Under the pieces are notes generated by a model. It was not told the origin of the DNA, made no database searches, and worked only from the letters and a program-made list of their open reading frames with translations. Shown here piece by piece: positions 2 to 19,155 of a stretch of 25,001 bases of DNA. The stretch's first letter is position 1. Each line of letters begins with the position of its first letter. The position numbers and the translations under genes are program-made. Source of the DNA: a virus. The DNA lies in IMG/VR virus record IMGVR_UViG_3300046804_000875, positions 1 through 25,001 of that record. The stretch is one strand, 5' to 3'.

Positions 2-3000
2 CTATTAACTGAAGAAGTTAAACCAACTGAAGTTAAAGTAACAGAAGATGTAAAACAAAGAAAATCTGAATTACAAAATGAGTTAGATGAATATAATTTA
101 AAACCTTTGCAATTAGGTATGTCAGATGCAGAATATAAAAATGTATTAGATAAAAGAGAAAAAAGAATAGCTGAAATTAATACAGAATTAAAATCTTTAG
201 AAGAAGTTAAACCAACTAAAGTAGAAGTAGATTTGAAATCTCCTGAAAAAATGAACGCATCTCAAAATAGATATGGTATAATTAAAGAAGGAAAAGATGC
301 AGGGTTTATAGTAACGGGTAATCCAAAGGATGGAGTAGTAAAAGTACAAGGTGTAACTGTTAATGAAGATTTAAGAGGAAAAGGTTTGGCCGGGGAGGCT
401 TATATTAAATTAGGTAACGACTTGGCTAAAGAAGGTATTTCATTAGCTAGTGACAGTTTTGATAAAATGGAACCATCTGCTAAAAGAGTTTGGGATAAGC
501 TTGTTGACAGAGGATTAGCGGAAAAAGGTGAAAATAATTATGAATTAAAAAAACCTGAAGCAAAGTCTGTAGAACAATTAAGAGCAGATGAGCAAACTGA
601 ACTTGATTCTAAAATACCAAATGCAGAACAATATAGAGTAAATGGTAAGGTAGATAGAGTCAAGCTAACTAATGAAGAAGATATAAAAGCTTTTGATGAA
701 GTTTATAATAAATATGATAAGTTAATATCTCCTTTATTAGAGAAACCGGCAGAAGTTAAAGTAACAGAGGAAGTTATAGAAAAAGATGATAATGGTGATT
801 TTGTTCCTAAGAAATTTACATTAAACAGGGCTGGAGAAAATCCAGCTCCGAATATACCAATTGAGTCTATTAAAGAAGAATCATTTGGTGGAGAAATGCC
901 TACTGATGTCAAACAGGTAAAATTGCTTGAAATAAGAGGAAGAAATGCTGAAGGAGAAACCGTAGGTTCTGTTTCAATTGAAATGAATGATGGTACACGT
1001 TCTGTATATGAAGTAAAATTTAATGATGAAAAATTAACTTCTTTAGAAGGTGGTAAAACAGAAGCTAAACCAACTGAATCAAAGACAAAAGAAGAATATC
1101 AAAAAATAAAATCTAATAAAAAGAAAAAGGATTTTGTAAGAAATAATCTACCTGAAGAATTTAAGCCATTGGCAGATGAATTAACAGAAGCCCAAATGTC
1201 TGAAATAGTAGATAGTAATTTTGATTTAAAAACAATTAAAAATATACAAGATGCCGTACAAAAGCAAAGCGCAGCAGAAGTACTTCAACCTAAACAGGAA
1301 GAAGATGGAGGCGCAGGGGGTGGACGTAAACGAGTGGAACAAGGAAAGCAAGGGAATGAGCCTACCGGAGAAAGCAAAGCCAAAGCCGCAGAAGAAGCAC
1401 AACCCAAGGGTACTGAGGAAGGCAAAGTAAAAGAACTTAAAACAAATGATAAGTCAATCTTAAACAGAATAAATAGTAGTGAAAATATACCAGATTCTGT
1501 AAAAGAGAAATTCAAAGATGATTTAAAATACGAAGTAAAAAGCAAAGAAGAAGCTAAAAGCATTGCTAAAAATATTATTAAAGAATATGGCACAGATGAT
1601 GCTGTTACACTAGCTGAAGCTAATAAGTTTCATGGAGATGTAAATTCTTTTATATTTAGTGAAGCTATAAATGATACTTACATTAAAGAATCTGAGGCAA
1701 AAACACCAGAGGAAAAATTAAAGTATGCTGAACAATGGGCTGATTACGCAATTAGATTTGATGAATCAGCTAGGTCTAAAGGTAGGTTTATATCTGCAAT
1801 TTCTGATTTCTACAAAAAATCACCTTTAGGTATAAAATTTGTAGAAAACGAAAGAAGAAACGAAGATTTTAAAAAATGGTATAAAGCCAAAGAGGGTTCA
1901 TATAAAGAAGTGTTTGATGAATTGGTTCAAGACCCTAAGTTTAAATCTTTGATTGGTGAAGAAGTCCAAAAAGGATTAAAAGAAGAAAGAGCAGCTCAAA
2001 GACAAGTAAACAGAAAAAAGATTGAAGATTTCTTTGAAAATGCTAAGTTAAAAGGCAATAATTTATACGCAGTACCTATTCCTCCTAAACTTATTAATGG
2101 AGCATTAGAAATAATGAAACAATCTGTATTAGCAGGGGAAAGTGTAGTAAATGCTGTAAATAAAGCTATTGAGCACATATCTAAAGAGGTAAAAGATTGG
2201 GATAAGGAAAAGTTTAGAAAAGAGTATGAAACAAAATTATCTTCAATAGAAGGCAAAGCTGGTAAAAGAGAAAAAGAAGAACTTCCTGAAGATGCTAAAA
2301 ATAAAATACTTGATAAGTTTAGGAAGAAATTAAAAGGTCTTGATGAAAGTCAAAAAGAGCAAGTAATTAGAAAATCATTTAAACAACTTGTTGAAAATGG
2401 AGCTTTAGAATATAATGACTTCAAAAAGATTATTGCTGAAACAATTGGATATGGCGAAGTTACTCCTGAAGAAGCTGCAAAAATAACTAAGCTTGTTAAT
2501 GATATTAATTCAGTTGATGATTTAGCGGAATCAATTAGAAATGAAGGGAATAGAAGTGAGCAGAATTTGTTGAAATACCAGAAGGCTAAAAAAGAAGCTG
2601 AAAAATCAGCAACTGAATTAAATAAAATGGTATACAACAAGACTAATATATCTAATAGATTATTGTCTATTATGCAGTTAAATACATTAGGTATACCTTC
2701 TTTGATAAATAACCCTATTTTCAATATATGGAATCAGGCAACCGTAAGGTTCCCTAATGCTGTTTCTATGACAGTATTAGACCAGATTTTATATGGAGGA
2801 AGTAAAGTTTCTAATAAGCTATTTGGAACAGGCGTTTTGTTACCAGAAAACAATGTGCTTGCTTCACAAAAAGAGTTTTTTAAGAAAGCATTGCAGGGAG
2901 GTAAACTTTCAACAGAGCAATTATTTACTGGATTAACTAATAAGGATTATTTCCAAAAAGAAATATATAGTTCTCAGATTCATCCATTTACATCTATTAA

Positions 3001-4696
3001 GGATTTGTGGAATTGGAAGTTTAATGGTAAGAATTTAACGCCAGCTCAAGTTGCCGACAAATCAATTCAGGCAACAGTAGGTTTACCTGCTGAGATAGTA
3101 GCTAGAGCTTTGAATATTGGTGATAAGCCTCAAAGATTTGCAGCAGAAGGCGCTCAAGCAGCAGTATTTGCTAAAAACCTTGGACTAAAAGATATTGATT
3201 ATAAGTATTTCTTAGAATTTCCAAAAGAAGAAGCTTATCGTGTTTTTAAAAAACAAGGTCTTTCTGATGATGTTGCAATGAAAAAAGCTGAAGAAATACA
3301 GGAAAGAATTATTAAGCAAGGTGAGGAATCTACGTTTCAACAAGAAAACTTAATAAATGAGGTAATTAATTCTGCTGTTAATATTGCATCTTCTTATGGA
3401 GCAGGTGCTGAAGGTGTTGTTAAGGTAATTAAGACATTAAATATGCCTTATTTGAAGATACCTTTAAATGCATCTTGGTCTGTATATAATTTAGCTAATC
3501 CACAAGTTGCTTTCTTACAATCTGCTATATATGGAGCAAGGGCGATAAAGTCACGTTCAGCATCTGATATTCAGCAATCAAAAAAATGGTTTGCTCACGG
3601 TGTTACAGGTATTGCATTAACAGGTATTGCTGGAGCGTTGGTTTCAAACGGAATAATAAACGCTAGTAATAGGTCTGATGAAACAAGTAAAAAAGAAAGA
3701 CAAGGAGAAAAAACATACGAACAGCAAAATAGTATTAATGTAACTAAATTAAATGCATATTTAAGAGGTGAAAATCCTAATGATGTTAAAAATAGTTTAA
3801 ATGTTGATTTAAAATGGTTTGGTAATGTTGGTAATATATTGAACATACAAGCAATAAAGGATGAAGAAATGACTCCTGAACAAAGAAAAAATGGTATGTC
3901 ATTTATGGAGGATATGTTATCTAGCATGAGTATATCTAGTATGGAGTTAATAGAAAATGGAGTATTTTCAAATACATCCGGTCTATTAACAGCAATAGAT
4001 AAAGGTGGAAACTTTGCTGATTCCTATGCATTGAATTTGATAAACATGGGAACAAATATTGTTCAACCTGCTATGTTTGCTCAGATGTCAAGAGCTCAAT
4101 TACCATACTATTCTCAGCAAAAAGCTGATACATTTATGGAAGAATTGAAAAACAATTTGCTTACTAGGTCATCAGTATTGAGAAGTTTATCAAATAAATA
4201 TCCTCCTTCTCAAATAGGAGTATGGGGAGATAGGTTAGATAGAAAAGACAATGTAGCAATGAAGCTGTTTGGAATAAGTTCTAATAACAATGATAATTTT
4301 GCTCAACCTATATATAATGATTATAAAAAAACAAATAATACTGCATTTTTACCTCCAGCAGTAAAGCCAGAAGTTAATGGTTTTGAGTTAAATGTATCTC
4401 AAACTAACAAATTGGAAACATTGGTTGGTCAAGCTAGAAAAAACTTAGTTGCCCCTTTTGTAAACGATGGAGCTAAACTTGATGGTTTTAAAGATAAATA
4501 TTATAGCAAGCTTTCTGAAGAAGATAAAACAAAGGCATTAGGTATATTGTATAAGGAGGGATATAAAGTGGGAGAAAAACAATTTACTGATTTGTACCCA
4601 GAGTTTTATAAATCAGACAAGAAAACACCTGAACAAAAAAAGGAATCTAAAGAAAGTTCAATCTTTAGAAAATCATTAAAAAAGCTTATTAAATGA
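2..4696 (+). CDS. Large internal/polyvalent virion protein with GNAT-like segment (5' partial)
   Basis: The reading frame is open from the left edge, so the true start lies upstream; 1564 codons are visible. It begins with charged linker (EEVKPTEVKV and variants). At about nt 250-550 there is a GNAT-like acetyltransferase segment with VNEDLRGKGLAGEAY, resembling the acetyl-CoA-binding R/Q-x-x-G-x-G/A loop. A GC-rich, Gly/Lys/Glu linker follows (about nt 1300-1430), then long charged helical stretches. The C-terminal third is more hydrophobic, with a possible membrane segment WFAHGVTGIALTGIAGALV (about nt 3586-3642) and runs rich in Ala, Asn and aromatic residues. The size, mosaic build and place just before the terminase genes fit the phage polyvalent or internal ejected proteins, which carry effector domains into the host with the DNA. 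That role is inferred; only the GNAT loop is a recognisable motif. The stop overlaps the next start (ATGA). Confidence 0.6.
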   Translation, partial: LLTEEVKPTEVKVTEDVKQRKSELQNELDEYNLKPLQLGMSDAEYKNVLDKREKRIAEINTELKSLEEVKPTKVEVDLKSPEKMNASQNRYGIIKEGKDAGFIVTGNPKDGVVKVQGVTVNEDLRGKGLAGEAYIKLGNDLAKEGISLASDSFDKMEPSAKRVWDKLVDRGLAEKGENNYELKKPEAKSVEQLRADEQTELDSKIPNAEQYRVNGKVDRVKLTNEEDIKAFDEVYNKYDKLISPLLEKPAEVKVTEEVIEKDDNGDFVPKKFTLNRAGENPAPNIPIESIKEESFGGEMPTDVKQVKLLEIRGRNAEGETVGSVSIEMNDGTRSVYEVKFNDEKLTSLEGGKTEAKPTESKTKEEYQKIKSNKKKKDFVRNNLPEEFKPLADELTEAQMSEIVDSNFDLKTIKNIQDAVQKQSAAEVLQPKQEEDGGAGGGRKRVEQGKQGNEPTGESKAKAAEEAQPKGTEEGKVKELKTNDKSILNRINSSENIPDSVKEKFKDDLKYEVKSKEEAKSIAKNIIKEYGTDDAVTLAEANKFHGDVNSFIFSEAINDTYIKESEAKTPEEKLKYAEQWADYAIRFDESARSKGRFISAISDFYKKSPLGIKFVENERRNEDFKKWYKAKEGSYKEVFDELVQDPKFKSLIGEEVQKGLKEERAAQRQVNRKKIEDFFENAKLKGNNLYAVPIPPKLINGALEIMKQSVLAGESVVNAVNKAIEHISKEVKDWDKEKFRKEYETKLSSIEGKAGKREKEELPEDAKNKILDKFRKKLKGLDESQKEQVIRKSFKQLVENGALEYNDFKKIIAETIGYGEVTPEEAAKITKLVNDINSVDDLAESIRNEGNRSEQNLLKYQKAKKEAEKSATELNKMVYNKTNISNRLLSIMQLNTLGIPSLINNPIFNIWNQATVRFPNAVSMTVLDQILYGGSKVSNKLFGTGVLLPENNVLASQKEFFKKALQGGKLSTEQLFTGLTNKDYFQKEIYSSQIHPFTSIKDLWNWKFNGKNLTPAQVADKSIQATVGLPAEIVARALNIGDKPQRFAAEGAQAAVFAKNLGLKDIDYKYFLEFPKEEAYRVFKKQGLSDDVAMKKAEEIQERIIKQGEESTFQQENLINEVINSAVNIASSYGAGAEGVVKVIKTLNMPYLKIPLNASWSVYNLANPQVAFLQSAIYGARAIKSRSASDIQQSKKWFAHGVTGIALTGIAGALVSNGIINASNRSDETSKKERQGEKTYEQQNSINVTKLNAYLRGENPNDVKNSLNVDLKWFGNVGNILNIQAIKDEEMTPEQRKNGMSFMEDMLSSMSISSMELIENGVFSNTSGLLTAIDKGGNFADSYALNLINMGTNIVQPAMFAQMSRAQLPYYSQQKADTFMEELKNNLLTRSSVLRSLSNKYPPSQIGVWGDRLDRKDNVAMKLFGISSNNNDNFAQPIYNDYKKTNNTAFLPPAVKPEVNGFELNVSQTNKLETLVGQARKNLVAPFVNDGAKLDGFKDKYYSKLSEEDKTKALGILYKEGYKVGEKQFTDLYPEFYKSDKKTPEQKKESKESSIFRKSLKKLIK

Positions 4697-5232: not shown

Positions 5233-7284
5233 ATGCTAGAAACCATAAAAATATACGGCACGGAAATTCAAATTCCGGAAAAGCCTGATGCATCTGATAT
5301 AGAAAATTGGGGTACAGATGACCCTAATGAACAATATTGGAGAAGAAAAGAAATACCTGCTTTTTTATCTCTTGTAGAATATGATAGTGAGGGTAATGCT
5401 CTATTAAACGCAGAACAAGCCGCCTATGCTAATAGAGAAGTTCTAAGATGCAAGAAAGGATTTTGGTTTTACAATAATGGTGCTCCAACTTACATAACAG
5501 GCAAAAATTATTTTTATTTAAGTTTTTGGAAACTAGAGGATGACATATATCCAGACTACAGGGATACAGATAGAAGATACTTTTTATTCTTAGACCATTG
5601 GGAAAGAACTCCTTGGTGCTTAGGTATTGTAAGAGGTAAGAAAAGACGTGAGGGTGCTACTTCAGTAGCTACTTCTAACTTGGTTTATGAATGTATATTT
5701 TACAAAAATAGCTTCTGCGGTTTAACGAGTAAAACTCAGGTGGATGCTAAGGCTGCGTTTACAAACATGGTTTCTTTTGGTTACAGGCAGTTGCCAGTAT
5801 TTTTAAAGCCAAAGCAATTAAATAATAAAGATAGCGTTAGTGAATTAGTATTTGCTCACAAATCAGTAGAAGTAAGAGGAGCTAAAGGAAGTATAGTAGA
5901 TACAGATACAGGACATAGGTCTAGGATTGATTATAGAGCCCCTTCTTTGAACTCTTATGACTCAGGCCGACTAAGTAGGGGGTTGTTTGATGAGGGTGGA
6001 AAATGGGCTAAAGAAAACCCTTTTTCAACATTTATATCAATCGTAAGTAAGACTCTTGTAAAGGGTGCTAAAAGGGTTGGATTTATAGAGTGTCCTTCTA
6101 CATCAAACTCAATGACAAGTGGTGGTGAGGAATTTAAGAACGTATGGGATGGTGCTGACCATTTCAAATACGCAAAGACACCTAACCGATTGGTTAAATA
6201 CTTTGCTCCGGCTTATGATGGGTATTTAGGTTTTATTGACAAATTCGGAATGAGTGTTATTAATGAGCCTACAGAAGAACAATATAAGTTTCTAGTTGAA
6301 TATTATGTTGGAGCTGGTGACTTAGATGAAAACGATATAAAATTAGGGGCTAAGAAGTATTTGGAGGAAAAAAGAAAACAATTAGAAGGCGTACAATTAG
6401 AAGAAGAAATAAGGATGAACCCTTTTGATGAAAGGGAAATGTTTATGCTTCGGAACAATAATTGTCACTTTGATGCCGTTGTATTGAATGACCTATATGA
6501 ACTAGCAAAGGTGAACGAAAGCTCTGCTGTTGAATATGGTAATTATGTTTGGGAAGGTGGGATACCATTTACAAAAGCTATTTGGCATAAATGTGATAAA
6601 GAGAGCGCAAGGTGGCATAGGGCTAAGGATTTTAAAACACCAGAAGAAACATACGAAAAAAGAGGTAGTTTATTTATACCAAAGAACTATGTTCAGTTTG
6701 TAAGTGCGGTTGACCCCTTTCAGAACTCAGTAGTTGAATCAGGAGAAGGCTCTAAAGCTAGTAGCTTTGTGATGAATAGATATGATAAGGGAGATAATGA
6801 CCCGATATTTGATAGGATGCTAGTTTCAAAGTATCACGCTAGACCTAAAATGGTAGAGCTTTTCCACATGGATATGGCTTTACAATGTTTTGCATACGGA
6901 GGCCAATTGCTTGTGGAGGCTAAAATGGATGGTGGATTAAGGAAGTTCTTTATAGACAATTATTTAGAAATGTTTCTAATGAAGCTACCAAATAAGGATA
7001 CTTATGGTGTTGACCCTAATGCTGATAATAAAGCATTGATGGTTAACTTGTGGGAGCAGTATATACTTACGAGTGGCAAAGACGGTAAAATAATATATCC
7101 TAATTTGATAGATGATAAATATGATGGATTATTAAAGTTCAATGTTAATGATACGGAAGTATCGGATTTGGTAATGGGAGGTGGATGGACTTTATTTGCA
7201 GATTATTATAAAAAGGTTAACTTGAAGAAAATAGAAAATAAGACTAAGCTTTCTGATTATTTTGCTATGAAACCAACACGCTAA
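5233..7284 (+). CDS. terL: Terminase large subunit (packaging ATPase/nuclease)
   Basis: This 683-residue protein is the motor that drives DNA into the prohead and cuts the concatemer. The ATPase half has a Walker A-like loop GKKRREGATS (about residues 135-144), a Walker B strand ending in Asp-Glu (GLFDEGGKW, D253/E254) and a coupling motif near ECPSTSN (about 286-292). The C-terminal RNase H-like nuclease half has acidic residues in the expected order: SAVDPFQ (about D493), LLVEAKMDG (about E561) and EVSD (about D644). Length is typical for large terminases of Bacteroidota phages. The P-loop is the variant, Arg-rich form found in terminases and not a classical GxxxxGKT. The stop shares its last base with the next start (TAATG), which couples the glycosyltransferase island to terL. 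Confidence 0.88.
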   Translation: MLETIKIYGTEIQIPEKPDASDIENWGTDDPNEQYWRRKEIPAFLSLVEYDSEGNALLNAEQAAYANREVLRCKKGFWFYNNGAPTYITGKNYFYLSFWKLEDDIYPDYRDTDRRYFLFLDHWERTPWCLGIVRGKKRREGATSVATSNLVYECIFYKNSFCGLTSKTQVDAKAAFTNMVSFGYRQLPVFLKPKQLNNKDSVSELVFAHKSVEVRGAKGSIVDTDTGHRSRIDYRAPSLNSYDSGRLSRGLFDEGGKWAKENPFSTFISIVSKTLVKGAKRVGFIECPSTSNSMTSGGEEFKNVWDGADHFKYAKTPNRLVKYFAPAYDGYLGFIDKFGMSVINEPTEEQYKFLVEYYVGAGDLDENDIKLGAKKYLEEKRKQLEGVQLEEEIRMNPFDEREMFMLRNNNCHFDAVVLNDLYELAKVNESSAVEYGNYVWEGGIPFTKAIWHKCDKESARWHRAKDFKTPEETYEKRGSLFIPKNYVQFVSAVDPFQNSVVESGEGSKASSFVMNRYDKGDNDPIFDRMLVSKYHARPKMVELFHMDMALQCFAYGGQLLVEAKMDGGLRKFFIDNYLEMFLMKLPNKDTYGVDPNADNKALMVNLWEQYILTSGKDGKIIYPNLIDDKYDGLLKFNVNDTEVSDLVMGGGWTLFADYYKKVNLKKIENKTKLSDYFAMKPTR

Positions 7285-7907: not shown

Positions 7908-7909
7908 CA

Positions 7910-8605: not shown

Positions 8606-8665
8606 ATTATTTATTTTAGTATCGCTTAATTCATAAAAAAATGGTTAGTTGTTAAATAAGACATA

Positions 8666-8730
8666 CCCCCGAAAACAAGACGTTCAAGCCCCCCTGCGTG
8701 AATTAAGCCGTCTTGTCGTAGGGGGCTTTT
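8666..8730 (+). ncRNA. Candidate structured RNA (pseudoknot) before the GT11 gene
   Basis: In an AT-rich genome this GC-rich patch contains two pairs of complementary arms in interleaved order. ACAAGACG (8675-8682) pairs with CGTCTTGT (8709-8716), eight base pairs. AAGCCCCC (8686-8693) pairs with GGGGGCTT (8721-8728), eight base pairs. The order A-B-A'-B' is that of an H-type pseudoknot. The second pairing alone can extend to a hairpin down to GCG/CGT (8696-8698 with 8717-8719), and its 3' arm is followed by TTTT, so it might also act as a weak terminator. An upstream ACCCCC run (8665-8670) could compete for the GGGGG run. The 3' arm ends seven bases before the next ATG, so folding could block or permit its translation. 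No known RNA family is recognised. Confidence 0.5.
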
Positions 8731-8734
8731 AATT

Positions 8735-9472
8735 ATGGTAACATTTACAAACGCTGGAAGAATGGGTAACTGGTGCTTTGAAGCAGCAACCGCAATAGCT
8801 TATGCCTTAAAGCATGACCTAGATTTTACTGTGCCATCCCATAGCGAAAATCCTAAATGGAATCCCATATATTGCTTACACTTAGTTAATCCTAATTATA
8901 ACCCAAGCTTAGAAAAGATTAATTTATGGGAGGGTAAGCATAGTTATGAAGAACTACCTTTTAATGAAGAATGGAGGGATAAGAATATTTCAATAGAAGG
9001 TTATAGACAAACCGCTAAATACTTTGATGAGTACAGGAACGAAATACTTTATTTATTTAATTTCCCATACAATAAAAAAGAAGGATATGTTGCTTGCCAT
9101 GTCCGTAGAGGAGATTATGTTCAATTAAGGGATAAGCACCCTGAAGTAAAAGTAGAATGGTATGAAAAAGCTATGGCAGAATTTCCCGGATACAAGTTTA
9201 AGTTCTTTTCTGATGACATTGAATGGTGTATGGAGAACTTTAAGCACAGAAATGATTGCGAATTTTCTGGTAATACTGATGAGGTATCAGACCTATTAGA
9301 AATGAGTTGGTGCGAGCATCAGATATGCAGCCCAAGTACATTTAGTTGGTGGGGCGGATGGCTCAATAGAAACGAAAATAAGAAAGTTATATTCCCTACT
9401 TTTTGGTTTAGCCCCGGTTGGGATGGATTAGATACTAGCGATATTGTTCCACCTTATTTTATAAAAATGTAA
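8735..9472 (+). CDS. GT11 fucosyltransferase-like enzyme
   Basis: This 245-residue protein matches the alpha-1,2-fucosyltransferase family GT11. Visible family motifs are the N-terminal GRMGNWCFE (residues 8-16, compare G-G-L-G-N-Q-x-F), the GDP-sugar-binding HVRRGDY (122-128) and CSPSTFSWWGGWL (198-210), the family's S-x-S-T-F-S-W-W-x-x-x-L block. GT11 enzymes transfer L-fucose from GDP-L-fucose in an inverting reaction. It is a little shorter than the usual 270-300 residues. No GDP-fucose synthesis genes are visible, but a GDP-mannose 3,5-epimerase is encoded two genes downstream, so the donor may be GDP-L-galactose; this is inference. The start lies directly after the structured RNA candidate. 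Confidence 0.88.
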   Translation: MVTFTNAGRMGNWCFEAATAIAYALKHDLDFTVPSHSENPKWNPIYCLHLVNPNYNPSLEKINLWEGKHSYEELPFNEEWRDKNISIEGYRQTAKYFDEYRNEILYLFNFPYNKKEGYVACHVRRGDYVQLRDKHPEVKVEWYEKAMAEFPGYKFKFFSDDIEWCMENFKHRNDCEFSGNTDEVSDLLEMSWCEHQICSPSTFSWWGGWLNRNENKKVIFPTFWFSPGWDGLDTSDIVPPYFIKM

Positions 9473-9474
9473 TT

Positions 9475-10062
9475 ATGAGTGATTTTTTAATGTTTGATTT
9501 TCCGCATTTCTATCAGAAGATTGCAAAAGAACTTCCTGATGATTGTAAAGTTTGTGAGGTTGGAGTTGCTGATGGTGATAGTGCCTTGTATTTGGCTCAA
9601 GAGTTGAATAGACTTGGAAAAAAGTTTAAGATGTATATGGTGGATAATATGGATTACGGAAAGTATATCCAAATGAAAACCATATATCAAAACATAATTA
9701 AAAGTGGATTAGGTGAATTTATAGAAGTGGTTCCGTTTGGTAGTTTAGATGCCGCAAAAATGTTTAATGACGGATACTTAGATTTCTGTTATATAGATTC
9801 ATCACATACATACGAAGAAACTAAAAAAGAAATTAGAGCTTGGTATCCGAAAGTTAAAGATGAGTATATATTAGCAGGACATGATTATAATGCAGATGAA
9901 GTACGTAGAGCAGTTGAAGAAGTTGTTCCTAAAGTATTTGTAAGAGATGATATTGGTGATAGAAGTTTTAATCCTGAAAATGTATTACAATCAGAAGATA
10001 CTTTAAATCACTTTGGCGTATGGTGGTTTAGAAAACAATGGTATTTAAAACTAAATAAATAA
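9475..10062 (+). CDS. Class I SAM methyltransferase (Methyltransf_24 type)
   Basis: A 195-residue Rossmann-fold methyltransferase. Motif I is VCEVGVADGDSALYLA (about residues 26-41), the acidic residue for the ribose of SAM is in MYMVDNMD (D57), and the block YIDSSHTYEETKKEI (about 106-120) followed by LAGHDY (133-138) is typical of the Methyltransf_24 group often found in polysaccharide gene clusters. The likely role is O-methylation of a sugar in the product of this island, but the substrate is not shown by the sequence. Two bases separate it from the GT11 gene and two from the epimerase gene, consistent with one operon. Confidence 0.78.
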   Translation: MSDFLMFDFPHFYQKIAKELPDDCKVCEVGVADGDSALYLAQELNRLGKKFKMYMVDNMDYGKYIQMKTIYQNIIKSGLGEFIEVVPFGSLDAAKMFNDGYLDFCYIDSSHTYEETKKEIRAWYPKVKDEYILAGHDYNADEVRRAVEEVVPKVFVRDDIGDRSFNPENVLQSEDTLNHFGVWWFRKQWYLKLNK

Positions 10063-10064
10063 AC

Positions 10065-11054
10065 ATGAAAACAGCATTAGTTTGTGGCGCAGGTGGATTC
10101 ATTGGTAGCCACATGGTAAAAAGATTGAAGAAAGAAGGATATTGGGTAAGAGGTGTTGATTTAAAAAAACCTGAATATTCGGACACAGAAGCAGACCATT
10201 TTGTAGTTGGCGACCTTAGAAACCCAGAAGTTGTAAGCAGGGTTACATTTGGGCCTAATCAAAGTGATATTTATGGCGGACATGGTTCGTTTGATTTGGT
10301 TATTCAAATGGCTGCTGATATGGGTGGTGCTGGATATATATTTACAGGAGATAATGATGCAAATGTGATGCATAATTCTGCATTGGTAAATTTAAACATG
10401 GTTTATTATTGCACTAGAAATAAAGTAAAGAAGATATTATTTTCATCTTCAGCTTGTGCGTACCCAGAGCATATTCAAGATAGAGAAGATAGTGCAGCTT
10501 TAAAAGAAAGTGATTGTTTCCCTGCAAATCCAGATTCGCCTTACGGATGGGAGAAGATATTTAGTGAAATATTATTTGATTCATTCAGAAGAAATTATGG
10601 TTTAGATGTTAGAATCTGTAGATTTCATAACATATTCGGACCTGAATCATGTTACAATAATGGTAAAGAAAAGGCACCTGCTGCTGTATGCTATAAAGTA
10701 GCTTCTGTTGAAGAAGGCGGTGAAATAGAAATATGGGGTGATGGAAAGCAAACAAGGTCTTTCCTTTTTATAGATGAAGCAGTAGAAGGTGTAATGAGGT
10801 TATTAGATGGTGACTATGTTCACCCTGTTAATATTGGTTCAAATGAAATGATTGCAATTAATGATTTAGCCAAAATGGTTATTGATATTTCTGGAAAGAA
10901 ATTAAGTATAAAAAATGTAGAATCAAATGCAATTGGTGTACGTGGTAGAAATTCTGACAATACATTGATAGAAGAAAAATTAGGATGGAAACCATCAAGA
11001 CCGCTTCGTGAAGGAATGGAAAAATTATATAACTGGATTAATCAAAAAGTATAA
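10065..11054 (+). CDS. GDP-mannose 3,5-epimerase
   Basis: A 329-residue extended short-chain dehydrogenase/reductase. The NAD-binding loop is GAGGFIG (8-14). Several stretches are characteristic of plant-type GDP-mannose 3,5-epimerase: SSACAYPE, LKESDCFPANPDSPYG, RFHNIFGP, EKAPAAVCYK, EIWGDGKQTRSFLFIDE and GVRGRNSDNTLI. The residues known to act in that enzyme are present: Cys131 in SSAC, Tyr160 and Lys164 in YGWEK, and Lys203 in GKEKAP. The reaction converts GDP-D-mannose to GDP-L-galactose (and GDP-L-gulose). The host would supply GDP-mannose. The most likely local user of the product is the GT11-like enzyme, since GDP-L-galactose differs from GDP-L-fucose only at C6. The family assignment is firm; the exact product balance is not visible. 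Confidence 0.88.
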   Translation: MKTALVCGAGGFIGSHMVKRLKKEGYWVRGVDLKKPEYSDTEADHFVVGDLRNPEVVSRVTFGPNQSDIYGGHGSFDLVIQMAADMGGAGYIFTGDNDANVMHNSALVNLNMVYYCTRNKVKKILFSSSACAYPEHIQDREDSAALKESDCFPANPDSPYGWEKIFSEILFDSFRRNYGLDVRICRFHNIFGPESCYNNGKEKAPAAVCYKVASVEEGGEIEIWGDGKQTRSFLFIDEAVEGVMRLLDGDYVHPVNIGSNEMIAINDLAKMVIDISGKKLSIKNVESNAIGVRGRNSDNTLIEEKLGWKPSRPLREGMEKLYNWINQKV

Positions 11055-11055
11055 T

Positions 11056-11679
11056 ATGCTGATACCATTAAAACCCGTACTTGAAAAGTATGATATAAAA
11101 TTGAATGGAGTTGTTCACGTTGGAGCTCATTGGGCTGAAGAACATGATGATTACATTGATTGTGGATTAAAAGGTTTTTTGTATGTTGAACCAATCAAAG
11201 ATGCATTTGAGGTTTTAGTTGAAAAGTTCGCAGGAAACCTTAGTGTTAAACTGGAAAATGTAGCAATTGGAAGTAAGGAAGATATTGGAGTAATGTGCGT
11301 TGATACAACCAATCAGGGTCAAAGTAATAGTTTGCTAGAGCCATTTGTGCATTTAGAACAGCACTCTGAGGTGATTTTTAATGGTGACCCACAAGTTGTT
11401 AAGATAGTAACATTGGATAGTATTGGATTCCCAACATGGTACAATTTATTTATGGTTGATACTCAGGGATATGAACTAGAAGTTCTAAAAGGTTCTCAAA
11501 GTGTTTTACCTCAATTTGATTTATTATACCTAGAAGTTAACAGACAGGAAACTTATAAAGGTTGCCCTATGGTAGAGGAGTTAGATGAATTTCTTTTACC
11601 TTTCGGATTTCATAGAGTAGAAACAAAATGGGCTTCTGATTATCACTCTTGGGGTGATGCCATTTGGATAAAAAAATAA
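11056..11679 (+). CDS. FkbM-family methyltransferase
   Basis: A 207-residue SAM-dependent methyltransferase of the FkbM type. It has the motif I strand GVVHVGAHWAEE (18-29), FLYVEPIKDAF (41-51) where the acidic residue binds ribose, and the family's MVDTQGYELEVLKG (133-146). The ATG at 11056 lies one base after the epimerase stop and is preferred; an in-frame ATG at 11008 would force a 47-base overlap and add residues unlike the family N-terminus. FkbM enzymes methylate hydroxyl groups in polyketides and sugars and are common in capsule and O-antigen loci. Substrate unknown. Confidence 0.8.
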   Translation: MLIPLKPVLEKYDIKLNGVVHVGAHWAEEHDDYIDCGLKGFLYVEPIKDAFEVLVEKFAGNLSVKLENVAIGSKEDIGVMCVDTTNQGQSNSLLEPFVHLEQHSEVIFNGDPQVVKIVTLDSIGFPTWYNLFMVDTQGYELEVLKGSQSVLPQFDLLYLEVNRQETYKGCPMVEELDEFLLPFGFHRVETKWASDYHSWGDAIWIKK

Positions 11680-11681
11680 TT

Positions 11682-12485
11682 ATGATAAACGTACCTTCTG
11701 AATTTACACCTACTATAAATACCATTTACCCTTTTGAGAATCTTTTTATTTTTGAAGATTGGGTAATGAGGCAGTATATACCTAAGACTGAAAGAGAATA
11801 TTTACCAATACAATGGACTGCATATCATGTTAATAACAGCTATGGGAATGATAAGCAAGCTATTGATAAGTTGCAAAAATATGTGGATAACCTATCAAGA
11901 GATAAAAAGTATTGGACAATTTGCCAATATGATGACGGTATAATTGTTGACCTTAAAGATTTAGATGTTCTTCAGTTTAGCATGAGTAAAAAAGTGGGCG
12001 TTGAAATACCACTTCTTTGTATGCCACACTCTTTTGAATGGGATGGACGTAAGCGTAGATTTGCTTCATTTATTGGAACGCATACGCATCCAATAAGAGA
12101 GCACGTATTTAATATATTAAATCCTGACTATTACATATCAGACAGAGGACATGACATAAACCAATTTTGTGATATTATTTCTGAGTCATTATTTGGTTTG
12201 TGCCCTAGGGGTTATGGGTTAAATAGCTTTAGGATAGCAGAATGTATGCAGTATTTAACAATACCAGTGTATATATCTGATGAATTTGTGAATCCTTTTG
12301 ATTTGGATTTTAGAGAGTTTGGGATTATAATAGAAGAAAGAGATGCCGATAGAATTGAGCAAATTTTAGGAAGCATATCTTACTTAGAAATAATAGACAA
12401 ACAGGAAAAAATAGGTGAAATATATAGAGAGTATTATACTTACGAAGGAGCACTTAATAACATAATTAAGATTTTAGAAAAGTGA
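11682..12485 (+). CDS. Exostosin (GT47)-like glycosyltransferase
   Basis: A 267-residue protein with the exostosin-family block SLFGLCPRGYGLNSFR followed by IAECMQYLTIPVYIS (about residues 169-199). In this family the Pro-Arg-Gly, Ser-x-R and Glu residues of this block form the nucleotide-sugar site of a GT-B fold, and 'IPV' ends the motif. The N-terminal half has no recognisable motif. The ATG at 11682 follows two bases after the FkbM stop; a longer reading from a TTG at 11664 would overlap that gene and is unlikely. Exostosin-like enzymes transfer GlcA, GlcNAc, galactose or arabinose in various taxa; the sugar here is unknown. The gene ends by overlapping the next start (GTGA). Confidence 0.72.
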   Translation: MINVPSEFTPTINTIYPFENLFIFEDWVMRQYIPKTEREYLPIQWTAYHVNNSYGNDKQAIDKLQKYVDNLSRDKKYWTICQYDDGIIVDLKDLDVLQFSMSKKVGVEIPLLCMPHSFEWDGRKRRFASFIGTHTHPIREHVFNILNPDYYISDRGHDINQFCDIISESLFGLCPRGYGLNSFRIAECMQYLTIPVYISDEFVNPFDLDFREFGIIIEERDADRIEQILGSISYLEIIDKQEKIGEIYREYYTYEGALNNIIKILEK

Positions 12486-13027
12486 AAATAGCAGTTATCC
12501 ACAATTTTGATTCTCATGACAGGTTTGATAGGCTTATGCAACAGTTTATTGGACAAGATATAAGACATTATCAGATATTTCCGGCTATTCATGACCAATA
12601 TTCTGTTATGAAGGGCATTAATCTAGCTCATAAACAATGCGTTCAGTTTGCAAAAGATAATGGACTCAAGGAAATATGTATAATGGAGGATGACGTAAAA
12701 TTCACAAATCCCAATAGTTTTAAATATTTCTTAGAAAATAAGCCAAAAGATTTTGATATTTATTTAAGTGGGATATACTTAGGGGAAATTTTAGAGGATA
12801 ATTCTGTTAAATCATTTACCGGATTCCATTGCTATATAGTTAATGAAAGGTTTTATGATAGATATTTAAGCGTTTCAGATGATGAGCATATAGATAGGGC
12901 ATTGTCGAATCTGGGAAAATACTATGTTTGTAACCCATTTGCAGCCATACAATATAATGGATTTTCATATAATACAAAAATGGATATGAATTATGATGAT
13001 TTGCTAAAAGGGCGTGAATTATATTAA
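12482..13027 (+). CDS. Second GT25-like glycosyltransferase
   Basis: A 181-residue protein with a GT-A-like layout: N-terminal strand MKIAVIHNF, a middle ICIMEDDVKF (residues 66-75, E69-D70-D71) equivalent to the EDD site of GT25 proteins, and later GFHCYIVNERFYDRYL, which resembles the GT25 'a-y-l-i-s' strand. It is more diverged than the enzyme encoded at 7284. The start codon is GTG and overlaps the previous stop by four bases, so it is probably translated by coupling. It is the last gene of the island; a promoter-like region follows. Confidence 0.6.
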   Translation: MKIAVIHNFDSHDRFDRLMQQFIGQDIRHYQIFPAIHDQYSVMKGINLAHKQCVQFAKDNGLKEICIMEDDVKFTNPNSFKYFLENKPKDFDIYLSGIYLGEILEDNSVKSFTGFHCYIVNERFYDRYLSVSDDEHIDRALSNLGKYYVCNPFAAIQYNGFSYNTKMDMNYDDLLKGRELY

Positions 13028-13052: not shown

Positions 13053-13081
13053 TATTTTTAACATAGTTTTAAGTATTTTTG
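13053..13081 (+). promoter_or_regulatory. Late-type promoter before HNH/portal genes
   Basis: TATTTTTAAC (13053-13062), an 11-nt gap, then TATTTTTG (13074-13081), which matches the Bacteroidota -7 element TAnnTTTG exactly. A TTTG at 13049-13052, 21 nt upstream of that box, is at the spacing of the host -33 element. The box is followed by GGTAACC. The same two-part arrangement occurs at 16520 and 20150. It lies in the only clear gap between the sugar island and the head module. Confidence 0.6.
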
Positions 13082-13105
13082 GGTAACCTTAAATTTAGCA
13101 TAGTA

Positions 13106-13669
13106 ATGCAGCAACAAACGAATGATATTACCGAAATCTGGAAAGACATACAAGGGTATGAAGGTTGTTATAAAATTAGTAATTTTGGTAATGTTATGGC
13201 TTTGAAAAGAGAATATTCTGCTAATGGTGCAAAAATGTTCACTGAAGAAAAAGTTTTGAAAAAAAGAAATTCAACAGATGGGTATTTTAGAGCAGCATTA
13301 ACATTAAAAGGTAAAAGAAAAGATATAGGTATTCATAGACTTGTTGCAATGGCTTTTATAGATAACCCTGAAAATAAATTAGAGGTTAATCATAAAGATG
13401 GAGTTAAAACCAATAATCATGTTTCAAATTTGGAATGGTCAACAAGAAAAGAGCAAATGAAACACGCTTATGATATGGGGCTAAATAGTATTGTAAAAAA
13501 TATGGAAAATAGACCTCCATCCACAGGTAAGATAGTTATAGATTATCATACCGGAATATTTTATGAATCAGCAAAGCAAGCAGCTAAAGCTAGGAATATG
13601 AAATATTCTACATTAAAAGCAATGCTAACAAATAGAAATAGCAATAGAAGTGGTATTCAATACGTTTAA
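13106..13669 (+). CDS. Free-standing HNH homing endonuclease (NUMOD4-HNH)
   Basis: A 187-residue protein in the order NUMOD4 (IWKDIQGYEGCYKISNFGNV, residues 11-30), HNH nuclease core (IHRLVAMAF, 76-84; EVNHKDG, 93-99; NNHVSNLEW, 103-111) and a NUMOD1-like DNA-binding tail (FYESAKQAAKARNMKYSTL, 152-170). Such proteins cut DNA at a specific site and spread by homing. No intron or intein borders are evident; it stands alone between a promoter and the portal gene. The ATG at 13106 is preferred over a TTG at 13079, which lies inside the promoter box. Its first six codons (MQQQTN) copy the start of the downstream portal gene, 16 of 18 bases identical, which suggests that it inserted at the portal start. 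Confidence 0.85.
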   Translation: MQQQTNDITEIWKDIQGYEGCYKISNFGNVMALKREYSANGAKMFTEEKVLKKRNSTDGYFRAALTLKGKRKDIGIHRLVAMAFIDNPENKLEVNHKDGVKTNNHVSNLEWSTRKEQMKHAYDMGLNSIVKNMENRPPSTGKIVIDYHTGIFYESAKQAAKARNMKYSTLKAMLTNRNSNRSGIQYV

Positions 13670-13682
13670 AGTATTATAAATT

Positions 13683-16010
13683 ATGCAGCAACAGACAAAT
13701 ACATATCCTAACCAACAGATTGACCCAAGGGACAAAGGATACGACTGGATTTTAGCTTATGTTAAAAGTGCTTGGGGAGATAGTAGGGGTTATGTACCAA
13801 ACAATATGCTCAATTTCGGTCAATCAAAAATGAACGAAATTAGAGAGTATGCATTAGGTAGACAAAGTACAACTAAATATAAAAAAATGTTGCTCGCAGA
13901 TGAGCAAACAGATAAAAGCTGGTTGAATATCGACTGGACTCCGCCATCATTTTTGACTAAATTTAGGGAGATTGCTATTTCAAAGTTGGTGCAAAGGAGA
14001 TACGATATTCAAGCATTTGCTGTAGACCCATTAGCTAAGAGTGAAGAAGATGCTTACTTCAATGAAATGAAGGTTAAGATTATGATGCGTGAAGCATTGA
14101 AGAAAGCTGGAGGAGAAGAACTTGCAGATAGCCCTGTGTTAGCACCAGCTCCCGGAGAGCCGCAAGACATGGAGCAATTAGAAATGGAGCAGCAGTTTGG
14201 ATATAAGCACGTGATGTCTATGGAGGCAGAGCAAGCTGTATCATTGGCTTTTTATCAAAATAAATTTGATGATAAAAGAAAAAGAACTTTAGAAAATTTA
14301 TTTGATTTTGGTATTGGTGGATATACGCAATGGATTGATGAAAATGGTCACGTAAGACTAAGAGAAATTAATCCTGAAAACATGGTTTTATCTTATTGTG
14401 CAAAAAGTGATTTTTCTGATTTAGTGCATTGGGGTGAAGTAAGAGAAATGTATATTGGAGATTTAGCTCCGTATTTTACAGCAGACCAAATGAATCAAAT
14501 GGTTACTTCTGTTGCAGGAAGATTTGGTAATCCATCAAACTTTATGTACGGAACCGACTATTCTAAATATTGGAATAGATTTAAAATATTAGTTTTAGAT
14601 TTTGAATTTTTATCTTGGAACGATTATACTTACAAAGAGGAAGTAGATGGTCGTGGTAATATAAGATTTGGTAAAACAAAATATCAGGCTGCATCAAGAA
14701 TGGCTGTTAATCAGTTAGGTTCATTAGAAGCTGAGTTTAATAAGCCAATGAGCCAAACAGAAAGTAAAGGTCAAGCAGAACCTGTATTTATGCCTGTAAC
14801 TAAAAAAGTTGTTTACAAGTGTAAATGGGTTGTGATGACTGACTTTATGTTTGATTGGGGTATGTCTGAAAACCAAATTAGAAAACCATCATCTTGGTGG
14901 GATACTCAATTAAATATCCAATTATATTCTTGGAACTTCTATAAGATGCGTTTTGCTGGTATTACAGAAAGACTTATCCCATTAGAAGATAAAGCTTGTT
15001 TAGCTTGGTTTAGATTACAGAATATGTCTAATAAACTTATTCCGTATTTAATAAATATTGACCTTAACGCACTTGAGGGTGTAGACTTTGGTGGAGGTGG
15101 AGATAAAATGAATCCTACTAAGGTTATGGATTTCATTTTCTCAAACTTTGTTGTTCCTTATCGTTCAACAGATTTGTTAAGCCAAAACCCTAACTACAAA
15201 CCAGTAAGTATTGAAGCTTCAGGTCAATTAGCTGTATTCGGACAATTGTATGATGACTTAATGCGCACTATTGATTTAATGCGTCAAGTATCTGGATTAA
15301 ACGAATTAACAGATGGTTCTACTCCTAATGCAAGAACTTTAGTTCCTGTTGCAAATGCAGCAATGGAAAGTACCAATAATGCTCTTTACTTATTGAACTT
15401 TGCAGATAAGCAATTGATTCAATCTTTAGCAGATGCAGTTGTTGCTAAAGTTCAAATAGCTGTTAAGTTAGGTAAAGTTCAAGGTGTGGCTAAAGCTTTA
15501 GGTGAGGAAACAGTTAAGTTTTTACAAATTAATCCTAATCTATCTATTCATGAGTTTGGTATTTTTATTGAAGATGCGCCTCAAGATTATGAAAGACAAC
15601 AATTAATTCAAGAGTTAAATATTCGTGACTCTCAAGGATTAATTGAGCCTGAAGATAAGATTTTAGTAATGAGTTGCCGTAATTTGAAAATGGCTTCTAT
15701 GATTTTGGCTTACAGAATCAAAAAGCGTAGAGAACAAATGCAGCAGTTTGAGTTACAAAAAATTCAACAACAAACGCAAGGTAATGCTCAAGCAGCTCAA
15801 GTTGCAGAACAAGAAAAGAGAACCACTTTGCAAGCTCAATTAGAATTAGATATTGCTAAGATAAATGCTGAGAAGCAATGGGAATACATTATCCAAATGG
15901 GTAAGAAAGAAAGCGATATTCAAGAAGCTAAGATTCAAAGTGATGCAAAAGTTATTGCTCAAAGAATTTCAGCAGAAGCTAAAATAACAGTTAACAACAA
16001 TAAAAAATAA
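13683..16010 (+). CDS. Portal protein
   Basis: A 775-residue protein that would form the dodecameric ring through which DNA enters and leaves the head. Support comes from size, its place downstream of terL and upstream of scaffold and capsid genes, and a layout typical of large podovirus portals: an N-terminal wing region (DWTPPSFLTKFREIAISKLV; RRYDIQAFAVDP), a central alpha/beta region, a segment around VSGLNELTDGSTPNARTL (near residue 540-560), and a long Gln-rich coiled-coil C-terminus (about 680-760) compatible with a barrel. No enzymatic motif is expected. Similar proteins occur in crAss-like and related Bacteroidota phages, from memory of the family and not from a search. It starts 13 bases after the HNH gene. 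Confidence 0.75.
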   Translation: MQQQTNTYPNQQIDPRDKGYDWILAYVKSAWGDSRGYVPNNMLNFGQSKMNEIREYALGRQSTTKYKKMLLADEQTDKSWLNIDWTPPSFLTKFREIAISKLVQRRYDIQAFAVDPLAKSEEDAYFNEMKVKIMMREALKKAGGEELADSPVLAPAPGEPQDMEQLEMEQQFGYKHVMSMEAEQAVSLAFYQNKFDDKRKRTLENLFDFGIGGYTQWIDENGHVRLREINPENMVLSYCAKSDFSDLVHWGEVREMYIGDLAPYFTADQMNQMVTSVAGRFGNPSNFMYGTDYSKYWNRFKILVLDFEFLSWNDYTYKEEVDGRGNIRFGKTKYQAASRMAVNQLGSLEAEFNKPMSQTESKGQAEPVFMPVTKKVVYKCKWVVMTDFMFDWGMSENQIRKPSSWWDTQLNIQLYSWNFYKMRFAGITERLIPLEDKACLAWFRLQNMSNKLIPYLINIDLNALEGVDFGGGGDKMNPTKVMDFIFSNFVVPYRSTDLLSQNPNYKPVSIEASGQLAVFGQLYDDLMRTIDLMRQVSGLNELTDGSTPNARTLVPVANAAMESTNNALYLLNFADKQLIQSLADAVVAKVQIAVKLGKVQGVAKALGEETVKFLQINPNLSIHEFGIFIEDAPQDYERQQLIQELNIRDSQGLIEPEDKILVMSCRNLKMASMILAYRIKKRREQMQQFELQKIQQQTQGNAQAAQVAEQEKRTTLQAQLELDIAKINAEKQWEYIIQMGKKESDIQEAKIQSDAKVIAQRISAEAKITVNNNKK

Positions 16011-16017
16011 AAATAAG

Positions 16018-16512
16018 ATGGAAGTTAAATCATTACTTAGCGGTAAAATGAGAAAGGGTCTACAAGACGCTTTGTACGTAGAACTGTACCAATCTAACTT
16101 ATGGAAAAGCCTAGCTAATCAGTTACAAAGATTAGGTTTATTTGGCACTCAATCATATTTCTTAGCAGAAAGCGCAGAGGAGTTAACCCATTATCAAATG
16201 ATTGTTGAGTTTATGAACGACATGGGTGATTGCGCAGATGTTCCTAAAATTGATGCAATTACAGATAAAATAAATACACTTGGCGATTCATTGGAAATTG
16301 GTTATGAAACTGAATTAGAGGTTTATAATCAATATAAAAAATTCTATGAGATGGCGGAAGAAGAAGATTGCGTAGTAGCTCAGTTCTTATTGCAATTTAT
16401 GGAGATTCAGAGAAAAGCTGTTGGTGAATATGGTGATTTATTAGCTAAGTACAAAATCGCTGAAGAAAACAAAGAGATTTTATTCTTTGATAAAGGAATG
16501 AGAAAAAATTAA
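16018..16512 (+). CDS. Ferritin-like (FtnA-type) protein
   Basis: A 164-residue protein with the ferritin four-helix layout and length. Candidate diiron ligands appear in order: E22 in YVELYQSN (compare NLELYSS in FtnA), E55 and H58 in SAEELTHYQ (compare AQEEMTHMQ), an acidic residue in YETELEVY (E97 or E101), and Q131 in FMEIQRK. The end, ILFFDKGM, resembles the FtnA tail LYFIDKEL, and VEFMNDMG followed by VPKID matches the region after helix B. Ferritins oxidise Fe(II) and store iron in a hollow shell. The gene is seven bases after the portal and in the same operon, so it is made with head proteins; whether it becomes part of the virion, stores iron, or lost activity is not known. The first and third ligand positions should be checked by structural alignment. 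Confidence 0.78.
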   Translation: MEVKSLLSGKMRKGLQDALYVELYQSNLWKSLANQLQRLGLFGTQSYFLAESAEELTHYQMIVEFMNDMGDCADVPKIDAITDKINTLGDSLEIGYETELEVYNQYKKFYEMAEEEDCVVAQFLLQFMEIQRKAVGEYGDLLAKYKIAEENKEILFFDKGMRKN

Positions 16513-16519
16513 ATAAATT

Positions 16520-16549
16520 TATTTTTTTAACTAAATTTTATTATTTTCG
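16520..16549 (+). promoter_or_regulatory. Late-type promoter before scaffold/capsid genes
   Basis: TATTTTTTTAAC (16520-16531), a 10-nt gap, then TATTTTCG (16542-16549), one mismatch from the Bacteroidota TAnnTTTG box, followed by TAACG. It has the same two-part arrangement as the sites at 13053 and 20150. No TTTG -33 element is visible. The downstream edge overlaps a perfect palindrome. Confidence 0.5.
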
Positions 16550-16558
16550 TAACGAAAA
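16544..16558. promoter_or_regulatory. Palindrome overlapping promoter, possible operator
   Basis: TTTTCGTAACGAAAA has two perfect 7-nt inverted arms around a single A. It covers the end of the promoter-like box at 16542-16549 and ends eight bases before the scaffold gene. It could be an operator for a dimeric regulator or a small leader hairpin (six pairs, three-base loop). There is no direct evidence of binding. Confidence 0.35.
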
Positions 16559-16566
16559 ACACACTT

Positions 16567-17751: not shown

Positions 17752-19107
17752 ATGGCAAACAATTTAGGTAACATTACCAAAGCCTACGTCAGCGCAATTG
17801 ACCCTGTGCTTGACACGAGAGAGATTAACAAGCTCGTTACTGATATTCAGAACGATGATGCTCTAACAGACATTTTGTGGTTAGGTGACAGAAAGAAGCC
17901 TATCACTACTGGTCAACCTATTTATTACACTTTTGTAAACGAAGCTTTATTCAAACTTCTTGATACAACTGGTGGCACTGTAAATGGTTCTGGTACAACT
18001 TCTATCAACTTTACTTGTACTACTGCGACTTCTGGTCAAGCTCGTAAAGATGATTTAGTTCTAGTTCCAACTGGTGCTATCTCTGCTATCGTTACAAATG
18101 TTGTAACAACTTCAGGTGTTGATACCGTATACATTAAATCTGTATCTGGTGCTAACATGACTTTAACTGCTGGTGATAAATTATCTTTATTCTCAGTAGC
18201 TGTTGGTGAAAACTCAGTAAGCCAAACTAACTTACGTTTTGGTTTAACTAAGTACACTAACAAGTACCAAATCTTCCGTGAAATTTCAAAAATTACAGAC
18301 GTTCAAAACGCTGCAACTATTGAAGTTGAATTTAACGGTCAAAACAAATTTATCGTTAAAGACCACCTTGAAAAAGCAATTTTACTTAAAGGTAAAATCA
18401 ATGCTGCTTTCATCGCTGGTGATATGTCAGTTACTACTTTCAGTGATACTAACCCTATCCTTACTGATGGTAATACTTCTGGTAGCGATGGTGGTGGACC
18501 AGTACAAACAACTCGTGGTTTAAACAAATACATCGAGATGTATGGTAACACAATCGTTAACGGTACTTTAGGTACAGTACAAAAAGCAAACATTGATGAT
18601 GCTCTTGATACACTTATCGCAGCTAAATCTCCTAAAGATTATTTAGTATTCGGTTCAAGTGCAGTTAAGAGAGCTCATGACACTTATTGGAAGGCATTAG
18701 GTTCTTCTGGTGTACAATCAGTTCGTATCGTTGTTGACGGTAAAGAACTTGATTTACAAGTAGACAAAGTAAGTTACGGTGGTTTTACCCTTAACTACAT
18801 GGCTATGCCAATCCAAGACCAACCAGTATTATTCGGTCAAACTGTAATTAACAAATGTGCATACTATGTTCCTTACAACAACCGTGTTAAAGTACAAGGT
18901 GGTGGTTATGATTCAGCAATGCGTGTAAGATACGTACCAGCTCAGACTAAATTCGGTAACGATATGATTGGTGAAATCCACAGCGGTGCAATTTCTCCAG
19001 TAAATCCTAACGGAGATGCAATGAACTGGACTTGTTCTTGGACAACTGCTCAAGGTCTTGAGTGTTTAGGTGTTCAGCACTTCTTACGTCAGCAAGTATT
19101 ATCATAA
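17752..19107 (+). CDS. Major capsid protein
   Basis: A 451-residue protein that would form the icosahedral shell, probably with the HK97 fold. The start MANNLGNITKAYVSAIDP and the segment DIQNDDALTDILWLG have the helical N-arm look of capsid proteins. Residues about 75-160 are Ser/Thr/Gly/Val-rich beta sequence, likely an insertion domain. The end includes NDMIGEIHSGAISPVNPNG. Support also comes from position after the scaffold and from codon use: CGT for Arg and AAC for Asn are much commoner here than in neighbours such as the first gene, as expected for the most abundant protein of the phage. A strong terminator follows 20 bases after the stop. Confidence 0.82.
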   Translation: MANNLGNITKAYVSAIDPVLDTREINKLVTDIQNDDALTDILWLGDRKKPITTGQPIYYTFVNEALFKLLDTTGGTVNGSGTTSINFTCTTATSGQARKDDLVLVPTGAISAIVTNVVTTSGVDTVYIKSVSGANMTLTAGDKLSLFSVAVGENSVSQTNLRFGLTKYTNKYQIFREISKITDVQNAATIEVEFNGQNKFIVKDHLEKAILLKGKINAAFIAGDMSVTTFSDTNPILTDGNTSGSDGGGPVQTTRGLNKYIEMYGNTIVNGTLGTVQKANIDDALDTLIAAKSPKDYLVFGSSAVKRAHDTYWKALGSSGVQSVRIVVDGKELDLQVDKVSYGGFTLNYMAMPIQDQPVLFGQTVINKCAYYVPYNNRVKVQGGGYDSAMRVRYVPAQTKFGNDMIGEIHSGAISPVNPNGDAMNWTCSWTTAQGLECLGVQHFLRQQVLS

Positions 19108-19127: not shown

Positions 19128-19155
19128 GGTAGGCCGTTGAAATATACGGCTTACC
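19128..19155 (+). terminator. Rho-independent terminator after capsid gene
   Basis: GGTAGGCCGT (19128-19137) pairs with ACGGCTTACC (19146-19155), ten pairs with one G-U, around an eight-base loop, followed by TTTATTATATTTT. Flanking AATAA and TTATT can lengthen the stem. No promoter is evident between it and the gene at 19187, so that gene probably depends on read-through. Confidence 0.75.

Follow-up and report, generated by a model that had tools for sequence, protein, structure and literature searches.

An ORF of 164 codons lies among the apparent head genes of a 25,001-base virus record from an uncultivated bacteriophage (hereafter the window, meaning the whole stretch of DNA analyzed), where it was originally read as a ferritin. 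The locus raises three questions: (i) whether the ORF encodes a genuine ferritin; (ii) whether its position beside virion genes recurs in other phages; and (iii) what such a protein might contribute to a phage infection. The features of the window that bear on these questions are the following:

2..4696, plus strand: giant ORF, C-terminal part; a homologue directly follows the ferritin gene in some other phages (group B, below)
5233..7284, plus strand: terminase large subunit (phrog_6681, E=3e-73)
13683..16010, plus strand: portal protein (phrog_6547, E=1e-61), directly upstream of the ferritin gene
16011..16017, no strand: portal/ferritin junction of 7 nt, a cassette boundary
16018..16512, plus strand: ferritin gene, 164 aa, ATG at 16018 to TAA at 16512, predicted 24-mer-class ferritin fold
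16513..16566, no strand: AT-rich ferritin/scaffold-like gap of 54 nt, mostly missing in the empty site of contig L108
16567..17709, plus strand: scaffold-like protein, 380 aa, named for its place in the gene order, with a weak profile match in support
17752..19107, plus strand: probable major capsid protein, 451 aa, named from gene order alone (TerL-portal-scaffold-coat)
19128..19155, plus strand: terminator-like hairpin (10 pairs, 6 GC) after the coat gene

The arrangement given in the original prediction, a co-directional gene seven bases after the portal gene and ahead of a scaffold gene in a head operon, was borne out, the upstream neighbor being identified by its PHROG match and the downstream one by gene order together with a weak hhalign match (87.9% probability) to the counterpart gene in phi38:1, Elemovirus and Panino. 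The portal protein is 24–27% identical to the portals of Callevirus, Elemovirus and Maribacter phage Panino. For the product of 17752–19107, we obtained no family match and no significant profile match, and its fold prediction (pLDDT 29) was not used.

The region between the terminase and portal genes contains an eight-gene sugar island (7284–13027: GT25, GT2, GT11, methyltransferase 24, NAD epimerase, FkbM methyltransferase, exostosin GT47 and one unknown), which is conserved in groups A and C defined below and which neither the cultivated relatives nor the mapped group B genomes carry. A 129-nt gap (8606–8734) holds a long hairpin (−26.8 kcal/mol, z −1.8) with no Rfam match, and a free-standing NUMOD4/HNH homing-type endonuclease gene (13079–13669) adjoins the portal gene; in several relatives, related endonuclease genes lie after the coat gene.

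The 164-aa ORF scored 59.6 bits with the Pfam profile PF00210 (cut-off 24.5, E=4.3e-16), and PDB ferritins from Thermotoga, Archaeoglobus and Pyrococcus matched the protein at about 1e-9, or at 1e-12 with the family profile. The AlphaFold model (pLDDT 94.7) comprises five helices (9–38, 42–68, 88–116, 118–150 and 154–160), which together form a predicted four-helix bundle with a short C-terminal E-helix at 154–160, and Foldseek matched this model to T. maritima ferritin (6txj/1vlg) with a TM of 0.93 and an rmsd of 1.5 Å. Thus, the FtnA-like length and helix pattern proposed from the sequence were upheld, as was the four-helix bundle named as a check. Furthermore, phage ferritins are under strong purifying selection (pairwise dN/dS of about 0.01–0.12 for pairs with unsaturated dS); this, in combination with the PF00210 match, rules out a chance ORF or frame artefact. 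Sequence and model taken together confirm the ORF as a genuine, intact ferritin, predicted from its ligands to be of the iron-oxidizing type.

Related identities were also considered. A Dps was rejected because the matches listed in the PDB and fold searches were ferritins and an E-helix is predicted, and an encapsulated ferritin cargo or two-helix EncFtn form was rejected because the model has the full bundle and no long extension past the E-helix. A capsid-targeting extension was looked for in the ferritin and its homologues and none was seen, these proteins being compact, with an ordinary E-helix and tail. The FtnA subtype defined by the NCBIfam equivalog PRK10304 scored 27.5 bits, under its cut-off of 178.

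The metal ligands were assigned by alignment with A. fulgidus ferritin, and their conservation was determined across 64 distinct phage homologues, with identities as low as 46%:

16081..16083, plus strand: codon of E22, putative diiron ligand (FtnA E17), invariant in 64/64 phage homologues and in five cellular ferritins
16180..16191, plus strand: codons of E55 and H58, putative diiron ligands (FtnA E50 and H53), both invariant in 64/64
16312..16314, plus strand: codon of E99, putative diiron ligand (FtnA E94), assigned by the A. fulgidus alignment, invariant in 64/64
16408..16410, plus strand: codon of Q131 (FtnA Q127), invariant in 64/64
16405..16419, plus strand: codons of I130, K133 and A134, at the FtnA site C positions E126, E129 and E130, replaced in phage homologues

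All five A/B residues are therefore invariant, and they form a cluster in the predicted structure; neither the missing ligand cluster nor the unconserved residues that would have counted against the original prediction were observed. Of the ligands originally proposed, E22, E55, H58 and Q131 stood, while E97/E101 gave way to E99. The label "FtnA-like" likewise proved apt for the fold and the A/B ligands and inapt for site C, which in E. coli FtnA numbering we take to be E126, E129 and E130. In the 64 phage proteins, position 130 is I, F or V, position 133 is mostly K or T (Glu in three), and position 134 is A or S only, whereas acidic residues are retained in the five cellular ferritins used for comparison, with E at 130 and E or D at 134. 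With these replacements, the phage family has lost the third iron site seen in bacterial FtnA, a loss that could alter mineral storage. Everything required for Fe2+ oxidation is retained. The conserved Tyr24 position of FtnA is occupied by Trp or Tyr in phage ferritins (W29 here).

Successive IMG/VR scans yielded 29, then 69, and then at least 163 contigs with a ferritin relative, of which 80 were kept; overall, the contexts of 85 contigs were read. Among 50,697 phage records scanned, no ferritin relative was found apart from a mislabelled Bacteroides fragment, MT838721 (L032), which we rejected as a phage homologue because its ferritin lies among housekeeping-type genes and is also present in Bacteroides genomes. 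The GenBank record itself (MT838721.1), filed as phage, resembles a piece of a Bacteroides chromosome. The cellular ferritins found in 84,980 species genomes are only 24–31% identical to the phage protein (two pattern-based scans, which can miss relatives), and a long, fully supported branch separates the phage ferritins from the cellular ferritins used in the tree. Recent capture from a host was rejected because no relative above 31% identity was found in these species genomes, within the patterns that could be searched and with misses possible. As far as the searches go, the phage ferritins thus appear to constitute a widespread, phage-only lineage. The gene is single-copy in 10 of 10 carrier records checked. 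It is absent from the cultivated relatives Callevirus phi38:1 (Pervagoviridae), Elemovirus and Maribacter phage Panino and from the contigs L190 and L196 (51 and 62 kb), and the searches turned up no carrier in culture; because of these absences, and that in L108 described below, we consider the ferritin to be accessory rather than essential. In BFVD, ferritin-like matches also occur inside proteins of 333–763 aa from uncultured Caudovirales, named prohead protease or Dps, which are possible fusions to virion proteins.

The 85 contigs present the ferritin gene in five contexts:

Context A, 38 contigs: portal, ferritin and scaffold-like gene, in that order
Context B, 28 contigs: giant ORF of about 900–2100 aa upstream; most contigs also have one of 940–1530 aa downstream
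Context C, three contigs: GroES-like gene upstream, head structural gene downstream
Context D, two contigs: minor-head-like gene upstream, neck gene one ORF downstream
Context E, 14 contigs: giant ORFs that for the most part show no BLAST relationship to the group B ORFs, several with polyvalent-protein domains

A fixed position adjoining the portal gene was rejected given these five contexts, in all of which the ferritin gene adjoins virion genes or giant polyvalent-like genes. Homologues beside portal genes in other phages, proposed as a check of the original prediction, make up context A. That prediction had also called a true ferritin in a structural operon unusual; the ferritin in a structural operon stands, while its rarity has to be qualified, as the portal/scaffold position is typical of one phage clade and virion-gene neighbors recur in unrelated phages. 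The chance of five independent placements all falling among late genes would be a few per cent, assuming that about half of the genome is late. The placements may not all be independent, and we regard the recurrence as suggestive of a non-random association rather than proof of one.

The downstream giant ORFs of group B are partly homologous to the window ORF 2–4696. Giant ORFs found directly 3' of the ferritin gene (L156:8497-14505, L072:8502-13772, L146:8497-12720 and L153:8497-12732) carry ADP-ribosyltransferase (ART-PolyVal), LPD39 or Zeta-toxin domains. In a group A genome (G005), a single giant ORF (L120:1-10311; 3437 aa or more), with six BspA-type leucine-rich repeat regions, lies upstream of the terminase gene.

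Comparison of closely related contigs revealed how the gene moves. In the near clade, in which portals are at least 77% identical, all 33 readable portal junctions carry the ferritin gene, with one exception, L108. This contig has portal, scaffold-like and coat genes with 93–96% nucleotide identity to the window and no ferritin gene, its scaffold-like gene starting 7 nt after the portal stop, although as a 4.5-kb contig it may reflect an assembly fault. The missing stretch begins at the ferritin start and takes in most of the 54-nt gap behind the gene, which makes this gap part of the cassette. Reciprocal empty sites were observed in two other genomes: G009, whose portal is 63% identical, has an empty portal/scaffold junction and carries its ferritin at the group C site, while in G005 the group C site is empty. 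Moreover, L026 is 94–96% identical to the window in the portal and scaffold-like genes and 98% in the gap but only 72.5% in the ferritin ORF, the identity switching inside the first and last codons of that ORF, and its nearest allele is that of group C. A single clade for portal-adjacent ferritins was rejected (AU p=3e-6), the test being borderline when L026 and L105 were left out (p=0.045). Because of the empty sites, the L026 allele swap and the tree conflict, we conclude that, at the level of sequence comparison, ferritin is shown to have been exchanged between phages as a single-gene cassette, which would be inserted into their presumably late (virion) gene clusters.

A promoter-like site reported after the ferritin gene did not withstand comparison with background, since sigma-70-like sites numbered 29 against 30.5 expected and the match to a Bacteroidota-type TAnnTTTCGTAA-like promoter motif was within chance. 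On the plus strand, no terminator-like site was found between the ferritin gene and the end of the coat gene, the first one downstream being the hairpin at 19128–19155, in a region where the count of such sites is near background. From gene order only, we infer that the ferritin is transcribed late.

Since the residues for Fe2+ oxidation are kept and the ferritin gene is set off from its virion-gene neighbors by short gaps or overlaps, we favor, with moderate confidence, a late-expressed, ferroxidase-competent cytosolic ferritin that lowers labile iron during particle assembly. The gene would probably be co-transcribed with the portal, scaffold and coat genes, making its product abundant late in infection, and the cage would assemble inside the infected cell. 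Fe2+ would be bound at E22/E55/H58/E99/Q131, oxidized by O2 or H2O2 and stored as ferric mineral, and labile iron and Fenton chemistry would thereby be reduced during the packaging of phage DNA and the breakdown of host iron enzymes, to the presumed benefit of the phage.

The main rival, possible though rather doubtful, is that the ferritin is a virion component. It would be incorporated or packaged near the portal or along with internal proteins destined for ejection, and would function within the particle or upon entry into the next cell. In 42 of the 85 contigs, representing two groups, it lies beside or between giant ORFs, some of which contain polyvalent-protein domains (ART-PolyVal, LPD39, Zeta toxin, DarB-like), and polyvalent proteins have been proposed to be packaged and injected (PMC5512222); elsewhere, it adjoins genes for portal, minor head and neck proteins. 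A ferritin-assigned protein was also detected in a virion preparation of phage Sajous1, but, as the authors of that study point out, few-peptide proteins may be contaminants (PMC10892097). Against packaging, which gene neighborhood alone does not show, stand the compact homologues with their ordinary ferritin E-helix and tail and no targeting extension. An intact 12-nm ferritin cage is, moreover, too large for the portal channel. More tentative still is the extended proposal that several unrelated phage groups package ferritin with the head or with ejected polyvalent proteins, delivering an iron-oxidizing protein or iron with the DNA and so blunting iron- or peroxide-dependent damage at entry. 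Ferrojan-horse entry, in which particle-borne iron exploits host iron receptors at adsorption, is a published hypothesis (Bonnain et al. 2016, as related in PMC10892097), and one phage proteome includes a ferritin-like protein (PMC10892097). However, no tail-fibre or receptor-binding gene directly adjoins the ferritin gene in the 85 contigs read, and in the only such test found, TonB and FeoB mutants were without effect on infection by Vi01-like phages (PMC10892097). For the present ferritin, we judge this mode of entry very improbable. It is also disfavored in that a caged ferric core has no siderophore-like ligand.

Two further readings dispense with iron handling or with function altogether. 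The loss of site C ligands and the consistent placement beside structural genes would suit a ferritin fold co-opted for a structural or regulatory role that involves no iron chemistry, yet the invariance of the five A/B residues down to 46% identity would be unexpected for a purely structural role, making such co-option improbable. Least credible of all is a recently acquired host gene carried as a passenger without maintained function: presence or absence at the L108 site and exchange between phages are in keeping with it, but it was already disfavored by the strong purifying selection, and neither the near-clade junctions, occupied in every case except L108, nor the low identity of the closest cellular relatives fits it.

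With this ferritin lineage, both the need of late phage production for labile-iron control and the presence of iron-handling proteins in phage particles become testable, and the natural empty sites of a single-gene cassette offer clean comparisons.

Among known proteins, the closest in kind is the prokaryotic non-haem ferritin of the FtnA type (T. maritima, A. fulgidus, P. furiosus, E. coli), which shares the length, the bundle with E-helix (TM 0.91–0.93) and the ligands E17/E50/H53/E94/Q127; it differs in its sequence (18–28% identity), in the site C ligands and at the Tyr24 position. Vertebrate H-chain ferritin similarly has a two-site (A/B) ferroxidase center with Gln and a small residue (Ala or Ser) at the FtnA E130 position, whereas the present ferritin is phage encoded and far removed in sequence. 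The sole PHROG match of the ORF, phrog_16594 (E=4.6e-10), is unannotated and of unknown function, and a database ferritin from an uncultured marine phage (A0A8D9C9X5) has a predicted ferritin fold (TM 0.85) but only 21% identity. Proteins of the ferritin-like diiron superfamily are also encoded by gut phages, including Gratiaviridae, and have been suggested to increase tolerance to reactive oxygen (Benler et al. 2021, PMC8008677); these belong to other families (Dps-like and Mn-catalase), and the parts of that report consulted give no virion-gene position for them. Sajous1 (Vi01-like) gp217, detected by mass spectrometry in a virion preparation and proposed to share an operon with a tail completion gene, is alike by description, but it was assigned by Phyre2 at 22% identity and comes from an Enterobacteriaceae phage (PMC10892097). 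Our literature searches for phage ferritins beside portal genes or with polyvalent proteins returned nothing relevant except these two reports. Thus, while phage Dps and catalases (PMC8008677) and database entries naming ferritins in uncultured phages were already known, three findings are new as far as our searches go: a widespread phage-only lineage of putative two-site ferritins, the repeated placement of its genes next to virion genes, and the transfer of these genes between phages as a cassette.
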